Source of the DNA: Spirochaetota bacterium | GTDB lineage: Bacteria > Spirochaetota > UBA4802 > UB4802 | Direction of reading: 5' to 3' | Assembly (NCBI GenBank): GCA_040756435.1 | Contig: JBFLZD010000023.1 | Span: 1 to 54,303, forward strand | Length of the DNA stretch: 54,303 bases | Part shown: positions 8,659-17,705 of the stretch, one piece after another | How positions within the stretch are numbered: position 1 is the stretch's first letter | How the letters are laid out: every line of letters starts with the position of its first letter | Notes under the pieces: generated by a model | The model's database searches: none | What the model was told of the DNA's origin: nothing | Seen by the model: the letters and a program-made list of their open reading frames with translations, nothing else | Translations under genes and position numbers: made by a program

Positions 8659-9318
8659 ATGAAAAAAGCTGAACGAATCCAGTGGGAAAAAGACCAAAAG
8701 GTAAACAGATTTATTCAAATTGCACAGGGGATATTTTTTCAGAAAGGATATGACACAACAACTATCGACGAAGTAGCACAACTTGCTGGTTACAATAAAC
8801 GAACACTATATCATTATTTTAAGGATAAAGAAGAGTTATTTTTAGCAGTTGTTTTAGATGGGCTTAAGTTATTCAATAAAAAATTGCAGGAAGCATATGA
8901 TAACCCAATTGAAGGTCATACTAAGCTTTACAGTATGGGAAAAGCTTTTTTTACATTCTTTCTTGAATATCCTCATTATTTTAATCTCATAATGACATAT
9001 GAAGCTCGTAATTGTATATACTATCCAGCACAAGTTTCAAACGGTATAGGATTTTATAAAAATGAGTGTCAAAAAATTGCTGACAAAAATACTGAGTTGA
9101 TTTTGAAAGCTATAGAATACGGCATACAGGAAGGGAGCATTCATACTACTTTGACACCAAGACAGCTGATGGTAATACTATGGGGGCAGGTTTTTGGGAT
9201 TACACAGATAATTATGATGCGTCAAACATATTTTAAAGAAGCCTTTGGCATTGACCATACCGAATTGTTTGAAAAATTTCTACTTCACACAGAAAAATCT
9301 TTAAAAAACCCTATATGA
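8659..9318 (+). CDS. TetR/AcrR family transcriptional regulator
   Basis: A 219-residue one-component regulator. The N-terminal helix-turn-helix is typical of TetR (AQGIFFQKGYDTTTIDEVAQ, then NKRTLYHYFKDKEELF), followed by an all-helical ligand domain of about 150 residues ending near LLHTEKSLK. It is transcribed away from the DUF819/lyase operon; the 221-bp gap holds two palindromic operators, so it most likely represses that operon in response to a lipid-like or hydrophobic effector (inference). No matching palindrome sits near its own start, so autoregulation would have to act from the shared gap. The Shine-Dalgarno is weak (AGGA about 12 nt upstream). A strong hairpin terminator follows the stop. 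Confidence 0.9.
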   Translation: MKKAERIQWEKDQKVNRFIQIAQGIFFQKGYDTTTIDEVAQLAGYNKRTLYHYFKDKEELFLAVVLDGLKLFNKKLQEAYDNPIEGHTKLYSMGKAFFTFFLEYPHYFNLIMTYEARNCIYYPAQVSNGIGFYKNECQKIADKNTELILKAIEYGIQEGSIHTTLTPRQLMVILWGQVFGITQIIMMRQTYFKEAFGIDHTELFEKFLLHTEKSLKNPI

Positions 9319-9323
9319 ATAAT

Positions 9324-9351
9324 AAAAAGCCGCCATTATTGGCGGCTTTTT
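9324..9351. terminator. Bidirectional intrinsic terminator between tetR and csp
   Basis: AAAAAGCCGCC-ATTATT-GGCGGCTTTTT forms an 11-bp perfect stem, with A and T tracts on opposite sides so it can terminate transcription in both directions. It lies between convergent genes tetR (ends 9318) and csp (ends 9374). Confidence 0.9.
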
Positions 9352-9373
9352 ATTAGTGGTTTTTACAATTGTA

Positions 9374-9574
9374 TTATATCGCTCTAACGGAAACAGCTCG
9401 CGGACCTTTATCGCTGCTTTCGATCTCAAATTCAACCTTTTGTCCTTCTTTTAATGTCCTGAAACCGTTACCAATAATACCGGTATAATGTACAAAAACA
9501 TCGCTACCGTCTTCTTTGGAAATGAATCCAAAACCTTTCTTTTCATTGAACCACTTGATTGTACCTTTAGGCAT
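9374..9574 (-). CDS. Cold-shock domain protein (CspA family)
   Basis: A 66-residue single cold-shock domain that binds single-stranded nucleic acid and melts RNA structure. It carries RNP1 KGFGFI (13-18) and RNP2 DVFVHY (25-30), with the usual WFNEKKG start and a [10 protein letters not shown] end. The length is standard. AAGGAG lies 8 nt before the ATG. A near-consensus promoter 138 nt upstream gives a leader of about 130 nt, the kind of long leader known from cold-regulated csp mRNAs. It is monocistronic and closed by the shared hairpin at 9324-9351. Confidence 0.96.
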
Positions 9575-9711
9575 GTGAAAAACTCCTTAAATAAATAAAA
9601 TACGGCTAAAAGCCTTATCAGTAAGATGTGTGATTAGTTTTTATTTTTAAAACTCCTGAAGGAAATTTTACGAAAATAAAACCTAAATATACAACCTTAC
9701 TGTTTGTAACA

Positions 9712-9740
9712 TATATACTAATATTTCGCTATGTTGTCAA
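9712..9740 (-). promoter_or_regulatory. csp promoter
   Basis: On the minus strand TTGACA (9735-9740), a 17-nt spacer and TATATA (9712-9717) make a near-consensus sigma-70 promoter. The predicted start near 9704 leaves an untranslated leader of about 130 nt before the csp ATG at 9574. Confidence 0.75.
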
Positions 9741-9794
9741 CATTTTATTACAATTTATTTAATTTTTTTATTCAAATAAGCAAAACAGCTTCTG

Positions 9795-11108
9795 TTATAT
9801 ATTAACCAATCTCATTTCTTTTAACCGTTTACCAAAAACAGCGGTTATACCCAATCGAAGAATACCTGATACAAGTAATATTGTATAAATACTACTTCCG
9901 TTAATAGGGGGCAATATCTGTATTAAATAACCGCCTGACATAGCTCCTGCGCTAATCATTATACCATTTATCAGATTTAAATATGAGATATATCGAACAC
10001 GTTTGGAACTTACTGAAGCATCAAACATATAGTTAAATGAACTAATAGTGAAACCAGACCATACAAGCCCGGAAAATATTTGAACAATAAGCAAATAGAC
10101 AATATTGGAATTTAAAACCCATAGTACAGGGACTATCGCTATTAATGGTGATGTTATAGTCAATACTTTAGCATTCCCTATTTTATCAGCTATTGTACCC
10201 CACGAGTGCATGGCAATATACATAACAAATGGCGCACTGACTGTAACTAATGAATACTCAAAATAAGAAAATGAAAGATGTTGGAGCATGAGAACCGCAA
10301 AAAATGGTGCCGATAGATATACAGCAAAATTCATTAGTGAGTAAAAAGCTATGAAAATAAAAAAATCGTTTCTCGTAATACTTTTCAATATATTAGCTGG
10401 CAGTATGCTTGTCTTTTCAATTTCAAATGGTGGTTCGTGCATTTTTAAGAGATAGTAAAATGAGATAAATCGACTGATGGAAGCAATAAGGAAAATAGCC
10501 ACAAATGTTTGCATAATGTACTTTTCGGGAGACAATCGCAATGTGATTCCAACTGACAATGAGACCACAACAAGTAAAACTCCTAATATGCTATTTCGGA
10601 ATCCAAAGTATTTACCTCGCTTATGAGAAGGGATAAGATCGCTCATCAGGCTTGCCCATGCAGGATTGCCAATAGAGCCAAATACAGTGTAGAGTGTTAC
10701 AATAGCTATGAATATTTCAATCTGGTGATGTTTGACTAATGACAGGAAAAAGCTTACTATGTCAGTTTCTATCGCATATACCATAAAAAATAGTATGGCA
10801 CACAATAAAAGCGTTATTGCTTGTAAAAATACAAAAATACAAAATACTGTTTTTCGTGATTTAAAAAACTGAACAAATCTGTTTGAAAATACCTGCAAGA
10901 TTGAAGCTGCTATATTGGGAGCCGCATTTAATATTCCAACATGAACTACGGTGCCTTTAATCAAAAGCAGAAATGGGGTAAAGTAATCCTGAACGCAGCC
11001 AAACATTATGCTTGCAAATATTCCGTCAAGAAAAGATGCTTTGAGTGTTTGGCGTAATTTTGATTTTTTTACTTGTATTTTATTGTTATGTATCATATAT
11101 GGAAGCAC
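9795..11108 (-). CDS. MFS transporter
   Basis: A protein of about 437 residues with twelve predicted membrane helices in two six-helix halves, and a charged loop in the first half bearing SDLIPSHKRGKYFGFRN, which resembles the MFS loop 2-3/A-motif style with basic residues. It matches the general Major Facilitator Superfamily; nothing visible fixes the substrate. A GTG opens the frame at 11108 and an ATG follows at 11096. Neither has a convincing Shine-Dalgarno, so the start is uncertain by four codons. It is divergent from the orphan parA, sharing a 121-bp gap. Confidence 0.85.
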   Translation of the reverse strand: MLPYMIHNNKIQVKKSKLRQTLKASFLDGIFASIMFGCVQDYFTPFLLLIKGTVVHVGILNAAPNIAASILQVFSNRFVQFFKSRKTVFCIFVFLQAITLLLCAILFFMVYAIETDIVSFFLSLVKHHQIEIFIAIVTLYTVFGSIGNPAWASLMSDLIPSHKRGKYFGFRNSILGVLLVVVSLSVGITLRLSPEKYIMQTFVAIFLIASISRFISFYYLLKMHEPPFEIEKTSILPANILKSITRNDFFIFIAFYSLMNFAVYLSAPFFAVLMLQHLSFSYFEYSLVTVSAPFVMYIAMHSWGTIADKIGNAKVLTITSPLIAIVPVLWVLNSNIVYLLIVQIFSGLVWSGFTISSFNYMFDASVSSKRVRYISYLNLINGIMISAGAMSGGYLIQILPPINGSSIYTILLVSGILRLGITAVFGKRLKEMRLVNI

Positions 11109-11229: not shown

Positions 11230-11979
11230 GTGAGAATTATTGCTATTTCAAACAATAAGGGAGGCGTGGGCAAAACTACAAGCACAGTAAATATTGCCGC
11301 CGCCTTACAGATTTTAGGGAAAAAAGTTCTTGTTATTGATATTGATCATCAGGCACAGTCAACATACCATTTTGGGTATAATCCCAATAATTTAACATAT
11401 TCAGTATATAATGTGCTTAAAGGGGAAATTGCCTATAAAGATGTAATTATTGACCGTGATGGATTGCATATTCTCCCATCAAAAAATGAACTTAAAGATA
11501 TTGAGTTTATTCCGTTACCAGCCAAAGAATTTTTATTAAAAGAAGCATTGGAAGGAATCTCCAGTTATGATTTTATCCTGATTGATTGTCCACCTTCATT
11601 GGGGATACTGACGCTGAATGCTCTGACATTTGCTCATGAAATATTGGTTCCCCTTCAGGTTCAATTTTTGCCATTTCATGGTATGTATAATTTGTTTGAG
11701 GCAGTGCAAATGGTAAAACGAAGACTTAACAAAGATATTGAGATAACCGGCATTATTGGTACCATGTTTAATCCAAAAAAACAAATAAACATTGAAGTAA
11801 TTGAAGAAACAAAAAAGCGACTTCCAGGTAAATTGTTTGAAACGCTTATACGCGAAAATGTTCTGCTGCAAGAAGCACCAAGCTGGGGAAAAACTATATT
11901 TGAATACAAACCTAACAGCAATGGTGCTGTAGATTACATGAATCTTACTAAAGAAATCTTAGAAAAGGATGTAAATTAA
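11230..11979 (+). CDS. ParA/Soj family ATPase (no ParB partner in view)
   Basis: A 249-residue deviant Walker-A ATPase. KGGVGKTT (10-17) contains the signature lysine, DIDHQAQSTYHFG is the switch I / A' region and FILIDCPPSLGILTLNAL is the Walker B region. Length and motifs match chromosomal Soj/ParA that dimerise on ATP and bind DNA. No parB and no parS-like palindrome is adjacent, so it may position some other cargo or act with a distant ParB. It starts with GTG, preceded by AGGA 8 nt upstream. Its stop overlaps the convergent kinase gene by 4 nt. Confidence 0.9.
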   Translation: MRIIAISNNKGGVGKTTSTVNIAAALQILGKKVLVIDIDHQAQSTYHFGYNPNNLTYSVYNVLKGEIAYKDVIIDRDGLHILPSKNELKDIEFIPLPAKEFLLKEALEGISSYDFILIDCPPSLGILTLNALTFAHEILVPLQVQFLPFHGMYNLFEAVQMVKRRLNKDIEITGIIGTMFNPKKQINIEVIEETKKRLPGKLFETLIRENVLLQEAPSWGKTIFEYKPNSNGAVDYMNLTKEILEKDVN

Positions 11980-13046
11980 AGTTTTGAGCTATCTATAACC
12001 TTCCTTGCCTGACGTTCTAATACCTGTACAGCAACAATTAACATAGCAAATCGTTTGTCTTTGGTTTGACCGTGGTAGAATCTATAATAAATCTGTTGAG
12101 CTATCACTGCAAGGCGGAACAAACCAAAACAGAAAAAATAATCAAAATCGCTCATATCAATACCACTTTTTTGCTGATAGCGTTCCACCAGTTCTTTGCG
12201 TGTAAGCGCTCCATCAAGATGAGTTGGCATTAATCGTATAAGATGTACTTCTTCTGGATCATCTTTTTCAACCCAGTATGCAAGCGAATTACCTAAATCC
12301 ATAACCGGGTCACCTATGGTTGCCATTTCCCAGTCAAGAACACCAATTATCTTTTTAGGATTATTACTATCAAGGACAACATTATCAAATTTATAATCAT
12401 TGTGAATCACTGCTGCTCGTGTTGGTGTTCTGGGCATTTTTTCCTGTAACCACTGAATGACTTCAGTGTACGGTGGAGCATCAGGGGTCAGAGCATCATT
12501 ATAGCGTGCAATCCATCCATTAACCTGACGTTCAATATATCCTTCAGGTTTGCCAAAATTTTCCAGTCCAATTTCTTTATAATTCAGTGAATGAAGCTGG
12601 CACTGTATATCCAGTAACTGTTCACAAAGATATCTAAATTCGTCAGATGTATATGATAATCCTGGTGGCAATTCTTTACGTAATATAATCCCTTTAATAC
12701 GTTCCATAACATAAAATTTAGCGCCAATGATTGATTCATCATCACAATATACAAGAGGTGTGGGGCAATATGGAAATACAGGCTTTAATGCTTTCAGTAT
12801 TGAGTATTCACGATGCATATCATGAGCTGTTTTTGCTTTTTTGCCAAATGGGGGCCTTCGTAAAACCATTTCTCTGTTGCCGGCTTTGATAAAATACGTA
12901 AGGTTTGAAAATCCACTTGGAAATTGTTTTATTTCAATAGGACCTTGAATATCAGGGACATGCTGCATTAGATAATCCAGTATAATTTTACCGTCTATCG
13001 TTTCCCCTTCCCTGATTTCAGCTGGTTTATCAATATAATTATCCAT
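11976..13046 (-). CDS. APH-family phosphotransferase (ACAD10/11 kinase-like)
   Basis: A 356-residue aminoglycoside-phosphotransferase-fold kinase. The catalytic loop HNDYKFDN is at 215-222 and the magnesium-binding LDWE at 237-240, followed by GDPVMDLG. The N-lobe carries VLRRPPFG. This subfamily accompanies acyl-CoA dehydrogenases: it is fused to one in eukaryotic ACAD10/ACAD11 and is paired with one in Pseudomonas levulinate (lva) catabolism, where the kinase phosphorylates a 4-hydroxyacyl-CoA. Here the dehydrogenase gene is two genes upstream in the same operon. A role as a hydroxyacyl-CoA kinase is inferred from family and context; antibiotic resistance is unlikely. It is the last gene of the operon. 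Confidence 0.85.
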   Translation of the reverse strand: MDNYIDKPAEIREGETIDGKIILDYLMQHVPDIQGPIEIKQFPSGFSNLTYFIKAGNREMVLRRPPFGKKAKTAHDMHREYSILKALKPVFPYCPTPLVYCDDESIIGAKFYVMERIKGIILRKELPPGLSYTSDEFRYLCEQLLDIQCQLHSLNYKEIGLENFGKPEGYIERQVNGWIARYNDALTPDAPPYTEVIQWLQEKMPRTPTRAAVIHNDYKFDNVVLDSNNPKKIIGVLDWEMATIGDPVMDLGNSLAYWVEKDDPEEVHLIRLMPTHLDGALTRKELVERYQQKSGIDMSDFDYFFCFGLFRLAVIAQQIYYRFYHGQTKDKRFAMLIVAVQVLERQARKVIDSSKL

Positions 13047-13064
13047 AAAAGAATCCTCCAGTTG

Positions 13065-13790
13065 TCAAAGTTTTATATAGTTGTATATAATCTGAAAACA
13101 TTCATGTGCATATTCATCAGGCGTTACACCCCTTTTCGTGTATTTCCACCGTTTTAGATACCAGTCCTGGAGCATGGCTTTGCTTATTGAAGCGACCAAT
13201 GATGACTGTATATCTGGACGGAATTCATTACTCTTGATACCTTTTTCAATAATATCTTTTATTAAAGATTCTGTTAACAGTTCACCTTCAATTGTTTTAT
13301 TGTATTCAGAGCCTGTGAAATATCGTGTTTCCATATATGAGAAATAAAACCAATCTTTTATAATTTCACTGATAAAGATATGAGCACGTATGAAATTGTG
13401 TAATTTATCTTTTGAAAGTGATGAATGCATTAGTGATTCAGATAATACCTTCTCTACAGAAGTGCGCCCATACTGTTGAATGATATGTAATAATTCATCT
13501 TTTGAAGGGAAATATGCATATAATGCACCAATACTTAACGATGATACTGCTGACAGTTCACGTATGCTCATTACTGCATAGCCTTTTTTATTACTTATTG
13601 CTATAGCTGTATGAATGATCCGTTTGAGATTTTCAATTGATTGCGGTGATTTTTTAACCCTGATAAGCTGCCTGTGATCATCATATAACTTACTAACAAT
13701 ATCATCAAGGATAAACTTTATACTTTTTTTAAAACTGTTAAAGTTTTCCAGGTCAACAATATGAATGTTATCTGACTTCTCTGCCTTCAT
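13065..13790 (-). CDS. TetR family regulator of the acyl-CoA dehydrogenase operon
   Basis: About 241 residues. The HTH (SIRELSAVSSLSIGALYAYFPSK) lies unusually deep, near residues 72-95, because a 50-residue N-terminal extension precedes it. I placed the start at the ATG at 13790, with AAAGGA about 13 nt upstream. The longer reading back to 13898 runs inside the dehydrogenase gene in another frame and adds a basic, hydrophobic stretch with no family support. The gene overlaps the dehydrogenase 3' end by 23 bp, so translation may be coupled. As the only regulator in the operon it is the best candidate to bind the palindrome at 15860-15877 and so autoregulate. Confidence 0.85.
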   Translation of the reverse strand: MKAEKSDNIHIVDLENFNSFKKSIKFILDDIVSKLYDDHRQLIRVKKSPQSIENLKRIIHTAIAISNKKGYAVMSIRELSAVSSLSIGALYAYFPSKDELLHIIQQYGRTSVEKVLSESLMHSSLSKDKLHNFIRAHIFISEIIKDWFYFSYMETRYFTGSEYNKTIEGELLTESLIKDIIEKGIKSNEFRPDIQSSLVASISKAMLQDWYLKRWKYTKRGVTPDEYAHECFQIIYNYIKL

Positions 13791-14976
13791 AACTAGATAA
13801 AATCCTTTTAGCAACAACCGTCTTATGTACTTCGTCAGCACCATCATAAATACGAGCAGCGCGTTCATGTCTGTAGAAGAAGGCCAATATAGTATCATCA
13901 GTCATCCCCAGTCCACCATGCACCTGCAGTGCTCTGTCTATCACCTTCTGCATAACATTTGCCACATAGAATTTGATAAGTGACACATCAATGCGTGCTT
14001 CTTTCTGACCTAAGTGTTCTATCTTCCATGCTGCTTGTAAGGTCATGAGGCGTGCTGCCTGAATTTCAGCAGCACATTCGGCAACCCATTCCTGAATAAT
14101 CTGACGGGTTGCCAGTGTTTTACCATCAGGCGAAATAATACGCTTGTTGGCACGTGCACACATTAAATCAAATGCGCGTTTGCAGATTCCAAGCCAGCGC
14201 ATGCAATGATGAATTCGGCCAGGACCCAAACGTTCCTGAGCTATCACAAAACCCTGACCTTCAGGACCCAGTAAATTTGTTACTGGTACACGACAGTTTT
14301 GTAATAATATTTCACCATGGCTAAAATAATCACTTCCTTCATGACCCATAACCGAAATATTGCGTACCAGATTGAAGCCGGGAGTATTTGTAGGTACAAT
14401 AATCATGCTTGCGCGCAGATATGTTGGTGCTTCTGGATTGGTGACAGCCATAACAATTGAAAATTTTGAGCCATCTGCGGCAGTGGAATACCATTTATGC
14501 CCGTTAATTACATAGTAATCACCATCTTTAACTGCGGTTGTATCCAGTAATACTGGGTTAGAGCCAGGCAGGTCAACCTCGGTCATGGAAAAGCAGCTAC
14601 GAATTTCACCCCTAACAAGTGGCAATAGATACTTTTCACGCTGCTCATCATTTGCATATTTTATCAGTATCTCTATATTGCCTGCATCAGGTGCCTGACA
14701 GCCAAATACATAGTGGCCTAATGGAGTCCTTCCCAATGACTCAGAAACAAGGCCGTGTTCCACTAAATCAAGCCCCATCCCACCATATTCTTTGGGAACC
14801 TGTGGTGCCCATAACTCCATCTTTTTTACCATTTTTCGCTTTTCTTCAAGAACTGGTAGCATTGCCTTTATATCATTGCGAGCAAATTCCTGTTCTAAGG
14901 GGATGAGTTCTTTTTCCACAAATTCATCAATAAGTTCCAGAATAGCTTTCATCTTATCACTGATTTCAAAATCCAT
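13768..14976 (-). CDS. Acyl-CoA dehydrogenase (ACAD10/11-like)
   Basis: A 402-residue flavoprotein dehydrogenase with the three ACAD parts in order: an N-terminal helical domain with WAPQVPKEYGGMGLD, a middle beta domain with CFSMTEVDLPGSNP and YVINGHKWYSTAAD (FAD contacts), and a C-terminal helical domain with QVHGGLGMTDDTILAFFYRHERAARIYDGADEVHK. The C-terminal RIYDGADEVHK is typical of the ACAD11 branch. Electrons would pass to the electron-transfer flavoprotein encoded divergently at 15978-17705. In ACAD10/11-type systems the dehydrogenase domain acts on the phosphorylated 4-hydroxyacyl-CoA made by the partner kinase; that activity is inferred here. It begins 24 nt after the phosphatase gene. 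Confidence 0.93.
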   Translation of the reverse strand: MDFEISDKMKAILELIDEFVEKELIPLEQEFARNDIKAMLPVLEEKRKMVKKMELWAPQVPKEYGGMGLDLVEHGLVSESLGRTPLGHYVFGCQAPDAGNIEILIKYANDEQREKYLLPLVRGEIRSCFSMTEVDLPGSNPVLLDTTAVKDGDYYVINGHKWYSTAADGSKFSIVMAVTNPEAPTYLRASMIIVPTNTPGFNLVRNISVMGHEGSDYFSHGEILLQNCRVPVTNLLGPEGQGFVIAQERLGPGRIHHCMRWLGICKRAFDLMCARANKRIISPDGKTLATRQIIQEWVAECAAEIQAARLMTLQAAWKIEHLGQKEARIDVSLIKFYVANVMQKVIDRALQVHGGLGMTDDTILAFFYRHERAARIYDGADEVHKTVVAKRILSSYEGREVR

Positions 14977-15000
14977 AATACCCTCCTATAAAATATTTCA

Positions 15001-15720
15001 TCATCTATACGTCTTAAGCGATGGATCATTAGCTAACTCAATATGTGGGAAAAAATTAAACGAAGCTAAAATGAGTTCTTTTTCGTTATATCTTAGATGG
15101 GTCAATGATGTGTTAACTATCTGCCATGTTAGGCGCATTGCTGTTTCATCGTCAAAACCAAGAACCATCTGGACAATAGTACCAATAATTCCACCTGATG
15201 AAACAACAATAATATTCTTCCCCCTCCCATTTTCCTGTATAATTTGGGTGATAGCTGACCTTACCCGTTGTTTGACTTCAGGAAATGATTCAATCCCTTC
15301 ATAATTTTTCTGTGATTTTACCCAGTAACGCATAACTTTTTCAAATACACGCTGAAAAGCTTTTTTATCTGTATATATCTGCTTGATCTCCTCTTCAAGG
15401 GAAGGTTCGTCATCAAGTAAAACGGGAAAAATTGTTTTAATTATTGTTATTGAATCATATTCATTTAATCGGCTATCAATGTTAGGTTCAGGTAATTGAA
15501 CGCCTTTTAATTTAAAATAATTGATTATGGTTTGGGCAGTCTGTTGTTGTCGTTTTAATGTGCCACAATAGAGTGCATCAATTTTTTTATTTTTATAGCG
15601 ATAGTTGTATAGATATTCAGCCAGAATCTGTGATTGATTATACCCTTTTTCTGAAAGGTTATCATAATCACCCTGCCCAAAAGAACCCTGGCCATGACGG
15701 ATAACCAATATTTCACTCAT
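15001..15720 (-). CDS. Histidine phosphatase family protein
   Basis: A 239-residue phosphoglycerate-mutase-fold phosphatase. The catalytic RHG is at 8-10 (VIRHGQGSFGQ), LSEKGYNQSQ follows, and the second half has VVSSGGIIGTIVQMVLG, where a conserved His usually sits as SHGG; here it is SSGG. That replacement of the second catalytic histidine is odd and could reduce or alter activity. Other histidines are present but not in this motif. It is the first gene of the operon with the dehydrogenase, TetR and kinase, so a phospho-acyl or acyl-related substrate is plausible (inference). The promoter with a central palindrome lies 105-130 nt upstream. Confidence 0.85.
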   Translation of the reverse strand: MSEILVIRHGQGSFGQGDYDNLSEKGYNQSQILAEYLYNYRYKNKKIDALYCGTLKRQQQTAQTIINYFKLKGVQLPEPNIDSRLNEYDSITIIKTIFPVLLDDEPSLEEEIKQIYTDKKAFQRVFEKVMRYWVKSQKNYEGIESFPEVKQRVRSAITQIIQENGRGKNIIVVSSGGIIGTIVQMVLGFDDETAMRLTWQIVNTSLTHLRYNEKELILASFNFFPHIELANDPSLKTYR

Positions 15721-15824
15721 ACTTTAATCCTGCTTATAAACATTACTCATTTGCAACATGCGAAAGTTGGAATGAGCTGTTTATTGTTTGTAAATTTATT
15801 AATTTCAATTACGATATAGTATGC

Positions 15825-15909
15825 ACTATAAATAAGGCGCAAAAAAAGTCAAGAAAAATATAACGAACGTTCGTTATTTTCTTGATTTTTTTATCTATAC
15901 CATTACAAT
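15825..15909. promoter_or_regulatory. Back-to-back promoters with central palindromic operator (ACAD operon / etfBA)
   Basis: The centre is ATAACGAACGTTCGTTAT (15860-15877), a perfect 18-bp palindrome. To its left the minus strand reads TTGACT (15847-15852), 16 nt, TATAGT (15825-15830). To its right the plus strand reads TTGATT (15882-15887), 16 nt, TACAAT (15904-15909). The two -35 boxes thus flank the operator almost symmetrically, and the outer TCAAGAAAA/TTTTCTTGA arms extend the inverted repeat through them. A single dimeric regulator could control both the phosphatase-dehydrogenase-tetR-kinase operon and etfBA. The regulator identity (the TetR at 13065-13790) is inferred. Confidence 0.8.
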
Positions 15910-15977
15910 GGATTTAATTTAAAATATTAAAATAACTATACAATGTAATAGCAAGATTTAATATCAGGTAACAATGC

Positions 15978-16745
15978 ATGCTAACTAAATTAAAAATCCT
16001 TGTGTGTATAAAACAGGTTCCCGATACTAATGCTTCACTTTGTTTAAACAATGGAATGCCTGAATATGATGAAAAAACAGTATACGTAATTAATAGGTAT
16101 GATGAATATGCGCTTGAAGAAGCATTACAGTTAAAAGATCGTGATTTGACAGCGTATATACATACTATTTCTGTTGGACCAGGAAGAGTACAAAAAGCTT
16201 TACGACGTTCGCTGGAAATGGGAGCTGATGAAGCGTTTCACATACAAACCCAGGATGATGGGTTAAATACTCCATACGTGATTGCACAAACAATAACACA
16301 ATTTGCACAACATACCTATGACATTATATTCACAGGCGTAATGTCTGAAGATGCAATGAATCAGCAAACAGGACAGCTGATAGCGACAATGTTAGGATAT
16401 AATTATGCTACTGGTGTAACAGAACTATCGCTTATACAAAATACCATAACTGTAACCCGTGAGCTGGATGCACAGGAATCACTGATATATGATGTACCCA
16501 TCCCGTGTGTCATTTCTGTACAATCAAGTACACAAAAACCACGCTACCCTTCCCTCTCAAATGTACTGCGAGCACGCAAACAGGAAATTGCCATTATAAA
16601 ACCAGATTTAGCTATACCTTTTGCCCAAACAAAATGTCATTTTACCATGCCACAAAAAACAACACAATGCACGTTTATTGAAGGAAGCATGTTAAAAAAA
16701 GTTACTGAGCTATACGCTATTCTCCATAAAAATGCAGTTTTGTGA
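15978..16745 (+). CDS. etfB: Electron transfer flavoprotein beta subunit
   Basis: The 255-residue ETF beta/FixA subunit binds AMP and part of FAD in the heterodimer. Typical segments are KILVCIKQVPDT, INRYDEYALEEALQLKD, GPGRVQKALRRSLEMGAD and GVMSEDAMNQQTGQLIATMLG (nucleotide site), with a C-terminal PRYPSLSNVLRARKQEI recognition loop. That loop is where acyl-CoA dehydrogenases dock. It is the first gene of a two-gene operon, 6 nt before etfA, driven from the bidirectional promoter. An out-of-frame ATG lies four nt upstream; the in-frame ATG at 15978 gives the standard length. Confidence 0.95.
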   Translation: MLTKLKILVCIKQVPDTNASLCLNNGMPEYDEKTVYVINRYDEYALEEALQLKDRDLTAYIHTISVGPGRVQKALRRSLEMGADEAFHIQTQDDGLNTPYVIAQTITQFAQHTYDIIFTGVMSEDAMNQQTGQLIATMLGYNYATGVTELSLIQNTITVTRELDAQESLIYDVPIPCVISVQSSTQKPRYPSLSNVLRARKQEIAIIKPDLAIPFAQTKCHFTMPQKTTQCTFIEGSMLKKVTELYAILHKNAVL

Positions 16746-16751
16746 GGAACT

Positions 16752-17705
16752 ATGAGTATTTTAGTTATTGCTGATGTTAAAAACCGTACAGTAAATCCTT
16801 CAACCTTAGAAATGCTATCGGCTGCAAAAGAAATTGCTAATAAAAATAATATGCCAATCTATATATTGATTCCATTTGGAAATATTAGTGGCGATAGTTA
16901 CTGTTCAAATGAGTTTAAAACCTGTGTATTAGATTTAGACATTGAGCAATACAGAGCACTTAACCTTGTTAAGTATATTTCCACAGTTATACGGGAGATT
17001 AATGCTTCTTATATTATTGGGTTGCATACTCCATTTTCAATAGACTATATACCAGCACTGTCAGTAGAAATTAATGCACAGTGTGTTACGCAAATACACT
17101 CGTTAGATGTTTCTGAATATATTACTGTAACACGTGGCAGCCATGCTGGTAAGTTAGATCAACATATTGTTATAAATGAAACTCCAATTATAGTAACAGT
17201 ACTCCCGGGCAGTTTTGAGCCATATACTATTACTGATGTACAAACAAAAGAAATAATGATAATACACGTCCCTGAAAAAGATAAACATGCATATTGTAAT
17301 TTTATTACAAAGGATAGTAAGGATACATCGCTGGATGAAGCTGATGTAATTGTAGGTGCAGGCAAAGGAATTGGTTCACGGGAAAATTTAAATTTGATAT
17401 TTGAATTTGCAAAAGTATTTCCACATAGTGCTGTAGCAGGATCTCGTATTGTTTGTGATTATGGCTGGCTACCATATAGCAAGCAAATTGGTATAACTGG
17501 GAAAAGCATTGCACCCAAAGTATATATAGCCTGTGCAATTTCAGGTTCTTCGCAGCATGTGGCTGGTATTAAAGGAGCAAAAACAATAATAGCAATAAAT
17601 AAAGATCCCTATGCGCCTATTTTTAATGTTTCGCATTATGGAGTTGTGGCTGATATATTTGAATTTATTCCTCAATTCATTGATTTTGTACAAAATAATA
17701 CATGA
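16752..17705 (+). CDS. etfA: Electron transfer flavoprotein alpha subunit
   Basis: The 317-residue ETF alpha/FixB. The N-terminal domain I is followed by the conserved FAD domain: VIVGAGKGIGSRENL, VAGSRIVCDYGWLP, QIGITGKSIAPKVYIA, then GISGS-like AISGSSQHVAGIKGAKTIIAINKDP and a C-terminal PIFNVSHYGVVADIFEFIP. It forms the FAD-holding half that shuttles electrons from acyl-CoA dehydrogenases to ETF-quinone oxidoreductase. The RBS TGAGGAAC directly precedes the ATG. The divergent dehydrogenase operon is its likely client. No ETF-quinone oxidoreductase gene is in the window. Confidence 0.96.
   Translation: MSILVIADVKNRTVNPSTLEMLSAAKEIANKNNMPIYILIPFGNISGDSYCSNEFKTCVLDLDIEQYRALNLVKYISTVIREINASYIIGLHTPFSIDYIPALSVEINAQCVTQIHSLDVSEYITVTRGSHAGKLDQHIVINETPIIVTVLPGSFEPYTITDVQTKEIMIIHVPEKDKHAYCNFITKDSKDTSLDEADVIVGAGKGIGSRENLNLIFEFAKVFPHSAVAGSRIVCDYGWLPYSKQIGITGKSIAPKVYIACAISGSSQHVAGIKGAKTIIAINKDPYAPIFNVSHYGVVADIFEFIPQFIDFVQNNT

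Follow-up and report, generated by a model that had tools for sequence, protein, structure and literature searches.

Why would a bacterium keep a kinase, an acyl-CoA dehydrogenase (ACAD) and a histidine-phosphatase-fold protein (HP) in one operon, back to back with the genes of an electron transfer flavoprotein (ETF)? The question is raised by contig JBFLZD010000023.1 of a Spirochaetota bacterium (GCA_040756435.1; 3.6 Mb, 126 contigs, 99.65% complete), whose 54,303 nt, analysed as one stretch, are hereafter called the window. On its minus strand the genes run in the order HP-ACAD-TetR-kinase, the ETF beta and alpha genes diverge from HP, and a palindrome lies in between. This grouping is more than chance, since genes arranged and oriented in this way are found again across the taxonomic order as well as in other phyla. 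We consider it about 75% probable that the operon and the divergent ETF pair, taken as a whole, constitute a 4-hydroxyacyl-CoA module under a single TetR regulator, and the gene set probably serves to channel 4-hydroxy fatty acids into the usual breakdown of fats.

Lipid peroxidation, lactones and levulinate are sources of such acids, and the mammalian enzymes that act on them were described only in 2024-2025; our reading would place this chemistry in Spirochaetota and Desulfobacterota, together with a candidate TetR operator. A first-pass annotation of the same DNA had already proposed a self-contained unit of this kind, with a phosphatase in a new role and an ETF as one of its components. 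That interpretation is supported in part: its chemistry stands, whereas the novelty of the phosphatase role, the participation of the ETF in the chemistry and the self-containment do not, and phosphatase activity is doubtful. The five genes that it named (HP, ACAD, kinase and two ETF subunits) are all open reading frames (ORFs) with the coordinates given below (ORF list, Pfam), but the TetR gene between ACAD and kinase had been overlooked.

A split kinase and dehydrogenase of the ACAD10/11 type

The kinase gene (11976-13046, minus strand; Pfam APH PF01636, 2e-49) encodes an APH-fold protein and candidate 4-hydroxyacyl-CoA kinase of the same type as LvaA and the N-terminal half of ACAD10/11. 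Its nearest solved relative is 9o56 (E 8.7e-96), and full-length ACAD11 is matched at E 6e-50 (8v3v). The catalytic Asp217, in the motif HNDYKFDN, is invariant in 14 aligned rows and corresponds to Asp in 8v3v, though not in 8v3u. The dehydrogenase (13768-14976, minus strand; Pfam Acyl-CoA_dh_1/N/M) has ACAD11 as its best PDB match (2wbi, 1.2e-82; also 8v3u), and its stretch RLGPGRIHHCMR is identical in ACAD11 in the PDB alignment. Its catalytic Asp378, in YDGADEVH, aligns with the Asp of ACAD11 and with Asn in 8v3v. The kinase and ACAD aspartates have been mutated to Ala and Asn (PMC12440821), and judging from our alignments 8v3v and 8v3u appear to be the entries that carry these changes.

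A catalytic Asp instead of Glu was found in all 55 cassette ACAD rows (three of which repeat a contig) and in 8/8 plasmid rows, but in none of the seven paralogs compared among the 16 other ACAD matches of the same genome (five Glu, one Ala, one Val). Since ACAD11 is the best PDB match and this Asp is present in the cassette rows while absent from the paralogs, there is a strong case for assigning the protein to the ACAD10/11-LvaC subgroup rather than to the ordinary ACADs. The proposal that kinase and ACAD are a split form of ACAD10/11 and LvaA/LvaC is thus borne out by the PDB matches to ACAD11 and by the alignment of both catalytic aspartates. The assignment of 4-hydroxyacyl-CoA chemistry to the pair is well supported at the sequence level, with activities and substrate chain length as predictions.

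In the proposed route the kinase would transfer phosphate to the 4-hydroxyl group of a 4-hydroxyacyl-CoA. The product would then be oxidised at C2-C3 by the Asp-type ACAD, so that phosphate leaves and a 2,4-dienoyl-CoA is formed, and the enzyme would finally give the electrons back to yield a 2-enoyl-CoA that enters beta-oxidation. ACAD10/11 are reported to release phosphate by themselves, the electrons being returned to the substrate (PMC12440821, PMC11342911). A general fatty-acid operon, in which an ETF-linked ACAD stands beside a kinase acting on an unrelated small molecule, would agree with the ETF genes as divergent neighbours in 23 of 26 loci of this order and with a TetR protein that matches fatty-acid regulator models, below their cut-offs. 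We regard this as very improbable, given that the catalytic residue is Asp and not Glu, that the best match is ACAD11, that an ACAD11-type kinase is always alongside in this order, and that no activity of ACAD10/11 on ordinary acyl-CoAs was seen (PMC12440821).

Relation to known systems

How far does the locus agree with systems already described? In the levulinate cluster of Pseudomonas citronellolis LA18T (Habe 2019, PMC6692424), an LvaA-type kinase, a histidine phosphatase family protein and an LvaC-type ACAD likewise stand side by side, and the authors note that lvaB is absent. The cluster also has a PrpR/LvaR-like regulator, an LvaD-type short-chain dehydrogenase/reductase (SDR), a CoA ligase and a transporter, whereas the window has TetR and the divergent ETF pair, with SDR, CoA ligase and the others not recognised nearby. 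A phosphatase-family neighbour of the kinase and ACAD is therefore already known from that study, which includes a proposal for its role, and the idea that the phosphatase role is new has to be dropped. The lva operon of P. putida KT2440 has the kinase LvaA and the ACAD LvaC in common with the window, but it has LvaB, LvaD and LvaE as well, and the excerpts available on it mention neither HP nor ETF. Animal ACAD10 and ACAD11 combine a kinase half and an Asp-type ACAD half, fused in one protein where the window has separate genes; their phosphatase-like part is a HAD domain in ACAD10, as opposed to the HP fold in the window (PMC12440821, PMC11342911).

Among the listed ORFs of 7.3-22.7 kb, part of which were Pfam-scanned, we recognised neither an LvaD-type SDR nor an LvaE-type CoA ligase, and no thiolase or hydratase gene. 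A self-contained unit thus goes too far, and the cassette is filed here as lva-like rather than as an lva operon. The genome as a whole has one kinase of the cassette type, 17 ACAD-like matches including the window's own, ten thiolase C-domain matches and two ETF-alpha genes. In some relatives the cassette is accompanied by SDRs (L038), by an NDP-forming CoA ligase and 3-hydroxyacyl-CoA dehydrogenases (L050, L087) or by an SCP2 protein (L079), which fits an entry into beta-oxidation. Near the window's cassette we likewise recognised no 3-hydroxyacyl-CoA dehydrogenase or SCP2 gene.

Conservation across relatives

Conserved copies of the cassette are found in this Spirochaetota order and in Desulfobacterota, and looser forms in Pseudomonadota, Deinococcota and Actinomycetota. 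Phyla were grouped according to record titles, and the named-genome scan comprised the best 80 of 593 relatives, a spread biased to near relatives and Pseudomonas. A kinase match was obtained in 34 of 59 relatives (32 counted as cassette type, and two weak ones at 31% identity in G011 and 30% in G023) and an HP match in 32 of 59. Counted by genome, 29 had both, three the kinase only, three HP only and 24 neither; within the order the figures were 29, 3, 3 and 11. The three genomes with HP only (G018, G030, G032) do not serve as counter-examples, as their contigs end at about the kinase start or before it.

Among order loci with enough sequence, TetR was found in 29/30, ACAD in 29/30, HP in 25/29, divergent ETF beta in 23/26 and ETF alpha in 22/25. 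Two loci had no kinase over the threshold (L060, which is incomplete, and L061, with another kinase at 30%), and L036 showed an ACAD-sized gap but no ACAD match. The first-pass annotation had named absence of the phosphatase from related operons as an argument against it; HP proved to be a conserved neighbour, with three relatives lacking it. Some loci deviated in other ways. A second Asp-type ACAD, 67% identical to that of the window, is found some 3.5-4 kb downstream from the kinase in L038:14058-15958 and L049:12354-13553; in L038 it is followed by a second TetR gene, and we read it as a partial duplicate of the cassette. In G011 (L061:8210-15083) an ETF pair and an Asp-type ACAD diverge from each other without HP or the cassette kinase, and on the other side there are ORFs resembling an SDR and a 3-hydroxyacyl-CoA dehydrogenase, together with a different APH kinase (about 30%).

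Outside the order, 17 Desulfobacterota-like loci among the matches listed had ACAD in 15/15, TetR in 10/16, HP in 8/12, ETF beta in 6/11 and ETF alpha in 5/11. The whole window layout recurs in L069, L071, L083 (Desulfosarcina widdelii) and L087. The 52 Pseudomonas-group loci among the matches listed were looser, with HP in 29/51 and none of ACAD, TetR or ETF upstream. In P. schmalbachii (L079:5547-8053) HP is followed by an SCP2 sterol-carrier-type protein and then the kinase, with no ACAD nearby; the HP-gap-kinase spacing is that of the same 29 loci, and the SCP2 gene was checked in L079 alone. On plasmids of Alpha-, Beta- and Gammaproteobacteria, Deinococcus and Streptomyces, a phosphotransferase stands directly beside HP in 8/8 annotated records (10 of 45 HP-bearing records were examined, eight of them annotated). 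Of the two unannotated ones, L162 contains the kinase according to a profile search, and in L171 (Cupriavidus) none lies within 4 kb.

A phosphatase fold without its second catalytic histidine

What does HP contribute to such a module? The gene (15001-15720, minus strand; His_Phos_1 PF00300, 6.8e-23) encodes a member of a family with four conserved pocket residues, namely two Arg, a nucleophile His and a second His (PMC12051542). The window protein retains Arg8, the nucleophile His9 and Arg57, as well as Glu87 as the likely acid, and so do the other cassette HPs where the residue is covered. The second catalytic His is replaced by Ser175, at a position that is His in PDB relatives. Ser occupies this column in 82 of 84 aligned rows and in 78/78 distinct cassette HPs having the residue, a count from which L153 and L154 (both the window itself), L062 and L082 (repeats), L155 (no cassette HP) and L046 (which ends short there) are excluded and which includes L171, where a kinase is lacking within 4 kb. 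In the window's own genome the His is retained by two further proteins of the histidine phosphatase family (VSHGDP in L152, VTHKP in L155).

The AlphaFold model (pLDDT 92.2) places Ser175 between a strand and the following helix and groups with histidine phosphatases (Foldseek, VIA-align), with Z 22.3 and rmsd 2.3 over 175 aligned residues for PGAM5, and Z 21.7 and rmsd 3.4 over 200 for PhoE. HP thus has the fold of branch 1 of the superfamily by PF00300 and by model, but lacks the second His of canonical catalysis. His226 was considered as a compensating residue, but His is likewise present there in active relatives whose second His is normal (FN...HL), so no replacement is apparent. In the literature searched we found no report of a bacterial HP missing the second His; a study on the second catalytic histidine (PMC11836120) deals with another branch of the superfamily.

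A working phosphatase, which hydrolyses the 4-phosphoacyl-CoA or recycles a dead-end phospho-product, would be in line with the clear family fold and the four retained residues. The removal of phosphate from 4-phosphovaleryl-CoA was suggested, as a proposal, for P. citronellolis (Habe 2019, PMC6692424). Moreover, loss of a single catalytic residue need not abolish activity: a catalytic His to Ala change in rat fructose-2,6-bisphosphatase entailed a loss of less than tenfold, according to work cited in PMC10728186. Nevertheless, we hold the phosphatase function assumed in the first-pass annotation to be rather doubtful. The second His is Ser throughout the cassette HPs while same-genome family members keep it, hydrolysis by HP would just reverse the kinase in a system where ACAD10/11 release phosphate unaided, and three relatives have the cassette without HP.

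Alternatively, HP might substitute for LvaB as a partner protein needed by the kinase, as LvaB is for LvaA. The P. citronellolis cluster with HP and no lvaB (PMC6692424) points this way, but we deem the substitution unlikely in view of the HP-free cassettes L041, L055 and L057 and of the 22/51 Pseudomonas-group kinase loci without HP among the matches listed. DUF6285, which we take to be the family of LvaB, gave no match in the 59 relatives.

Most likely, then, HP is a low-activity or inactive partner standing outside the main route. The presence of Ser in place of the second catalytic His in 78/78 cassette HPs favours a weak or regulatory role over an obligatory phosphatase step. HP might bind the 4-phosphoacyl-CoA or the kinase, and so restrain or clear the build-up of phosphoacyl-CoA. 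Elsewhere in the superfamily the loss of catalytic residues has given rise to binding proteins, as in flea salivary proteins (PMC10728186), and ACAD10 carries a degenerate HAD phosphatase domain with an incomplete DxD that restrains its kinase (PMC12440821, PMC11342911). We tentatively suggest that the kinase is accompanied, in five or more bacterial phyla, by a dedicated HP that lost its second His, and that this HP may work on the kinase as a sensor or a brake by binding 4-phosphoacyl-CoA. HP would then correspond, in bacteria and with an unrelated fold, to the degenerate HAD domain of ACAD10. Two unrelated phosphatase folds, both degenerate and both tied to the same kinase, would make the most interesting parallel. 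The degenerate domain of ACAD10 is unexplained, and a split bacterial set with a degenerate phosphatase-fold partner of its own would allow control of the kinase step to be tested on small separate proteins.

A candidate operator between the divergent genes

The TetR-family gene (13065 to about 13790, minus strand; PF00440 (TetR_N) 4e-9, PF17932 2e-6) overlaps with its start the end of the ACAD gene, its longest ORF beginning at 13898. A shared regulatory site, as suggested before, is present as sequence: the perfect 16-nt palindrome TAACGAACGTTCGTTA (15861-15876, on no particular strand) in the divergent promoter region is the sole match in the window at up to three mismatches, with 0.17 expected, and its inner 14-mer occurs once exactly in the 3.6 Mb genome. 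The sole other near-copy in the genome has one mismatch; it precedes another TetR-like ORF by 12 bp (L157:1501-2120) and comes just after an AMP-dependent acyl-CoA synthetase-like ORF.

With strict 14-mer scoring, 36 of 81 rows reached p at most 0.01 and 28 had at least 12 of 14 letters. GC-rich variants scored lower in this way, and a degenerate core was counted instead, after dropping five contig-repeating loci (L062, L063, L073, L076, L082). The core occurs upstream in 33/41 loci with a cassette TetR and in 2/37 without, as compared to 0.15% of shuffles; it was chosen after viewing the strict 14-mer sites, and shared ancestry inflates the Fisher value. The palindrome is probably the operator of one TetR repressor for both divergent units, from which TetR would control the genes on either side.

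The ETF pair and the module as a whole

ETF beta (15978-16745, plus strand; ETF PF01012, 2.1e-29) and ETF alpha (16752-17705, plus strand; ETF_alpha PF00766, 7.8e-28; ETF PF01012, 1.8e-19) together have the beta, alpha and FAD-binding domains in Pfam. The pair probably belongs to the regulon, because it is conserved as divergent neighbour in two phyla. It had been counted as part of the chemistry, a view that does not hold although the neighbourhood is conserved: ACAD10 and ACAD11 need no electron acceptor (PMC11342911), and since the electrons return to the substrate the phosphate step can proceed without an ETF. As guesses, it could re-oxidise the ACAD flavin after incomplete turnover or serve later rounds of beta-oxidation. 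It may serve other ACADs too, since the genome, with its many ACADs, has just one further ETF.

Several points weigh against the module as we read it. Besides the ETF, for which the published reaction has no need, the palindrome core is missing from 8/41 TetR-bearing loci. Three genomes (G036, G037 and G044, with loci L057, L055 and L041) join ACAD, TetR and kinase without HP, as do without it the 22 Pseudomonas-group kinase loci mentioned above. In the Pseudomonas-group loci the 7 kb upstream hold no ACAD, so the two genes need not go together with one another: the kinase occurs there apart from it. Finally, 9o56 has no function in its name, and the APH family is broad.

Flanking genes

A second, unrelated TetR gene (plus strand) and an MFS-type transporter-like gene (minus strand) adjoin the cassette at 8659-11108 and occupy the same place in the genus loci L029-L031. 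Between them and the cassette, at 11230-11979, a stand-alone ParA/MinD-type ATPase is convergent with the kinase and shows 91-98% identity in the genus loci.

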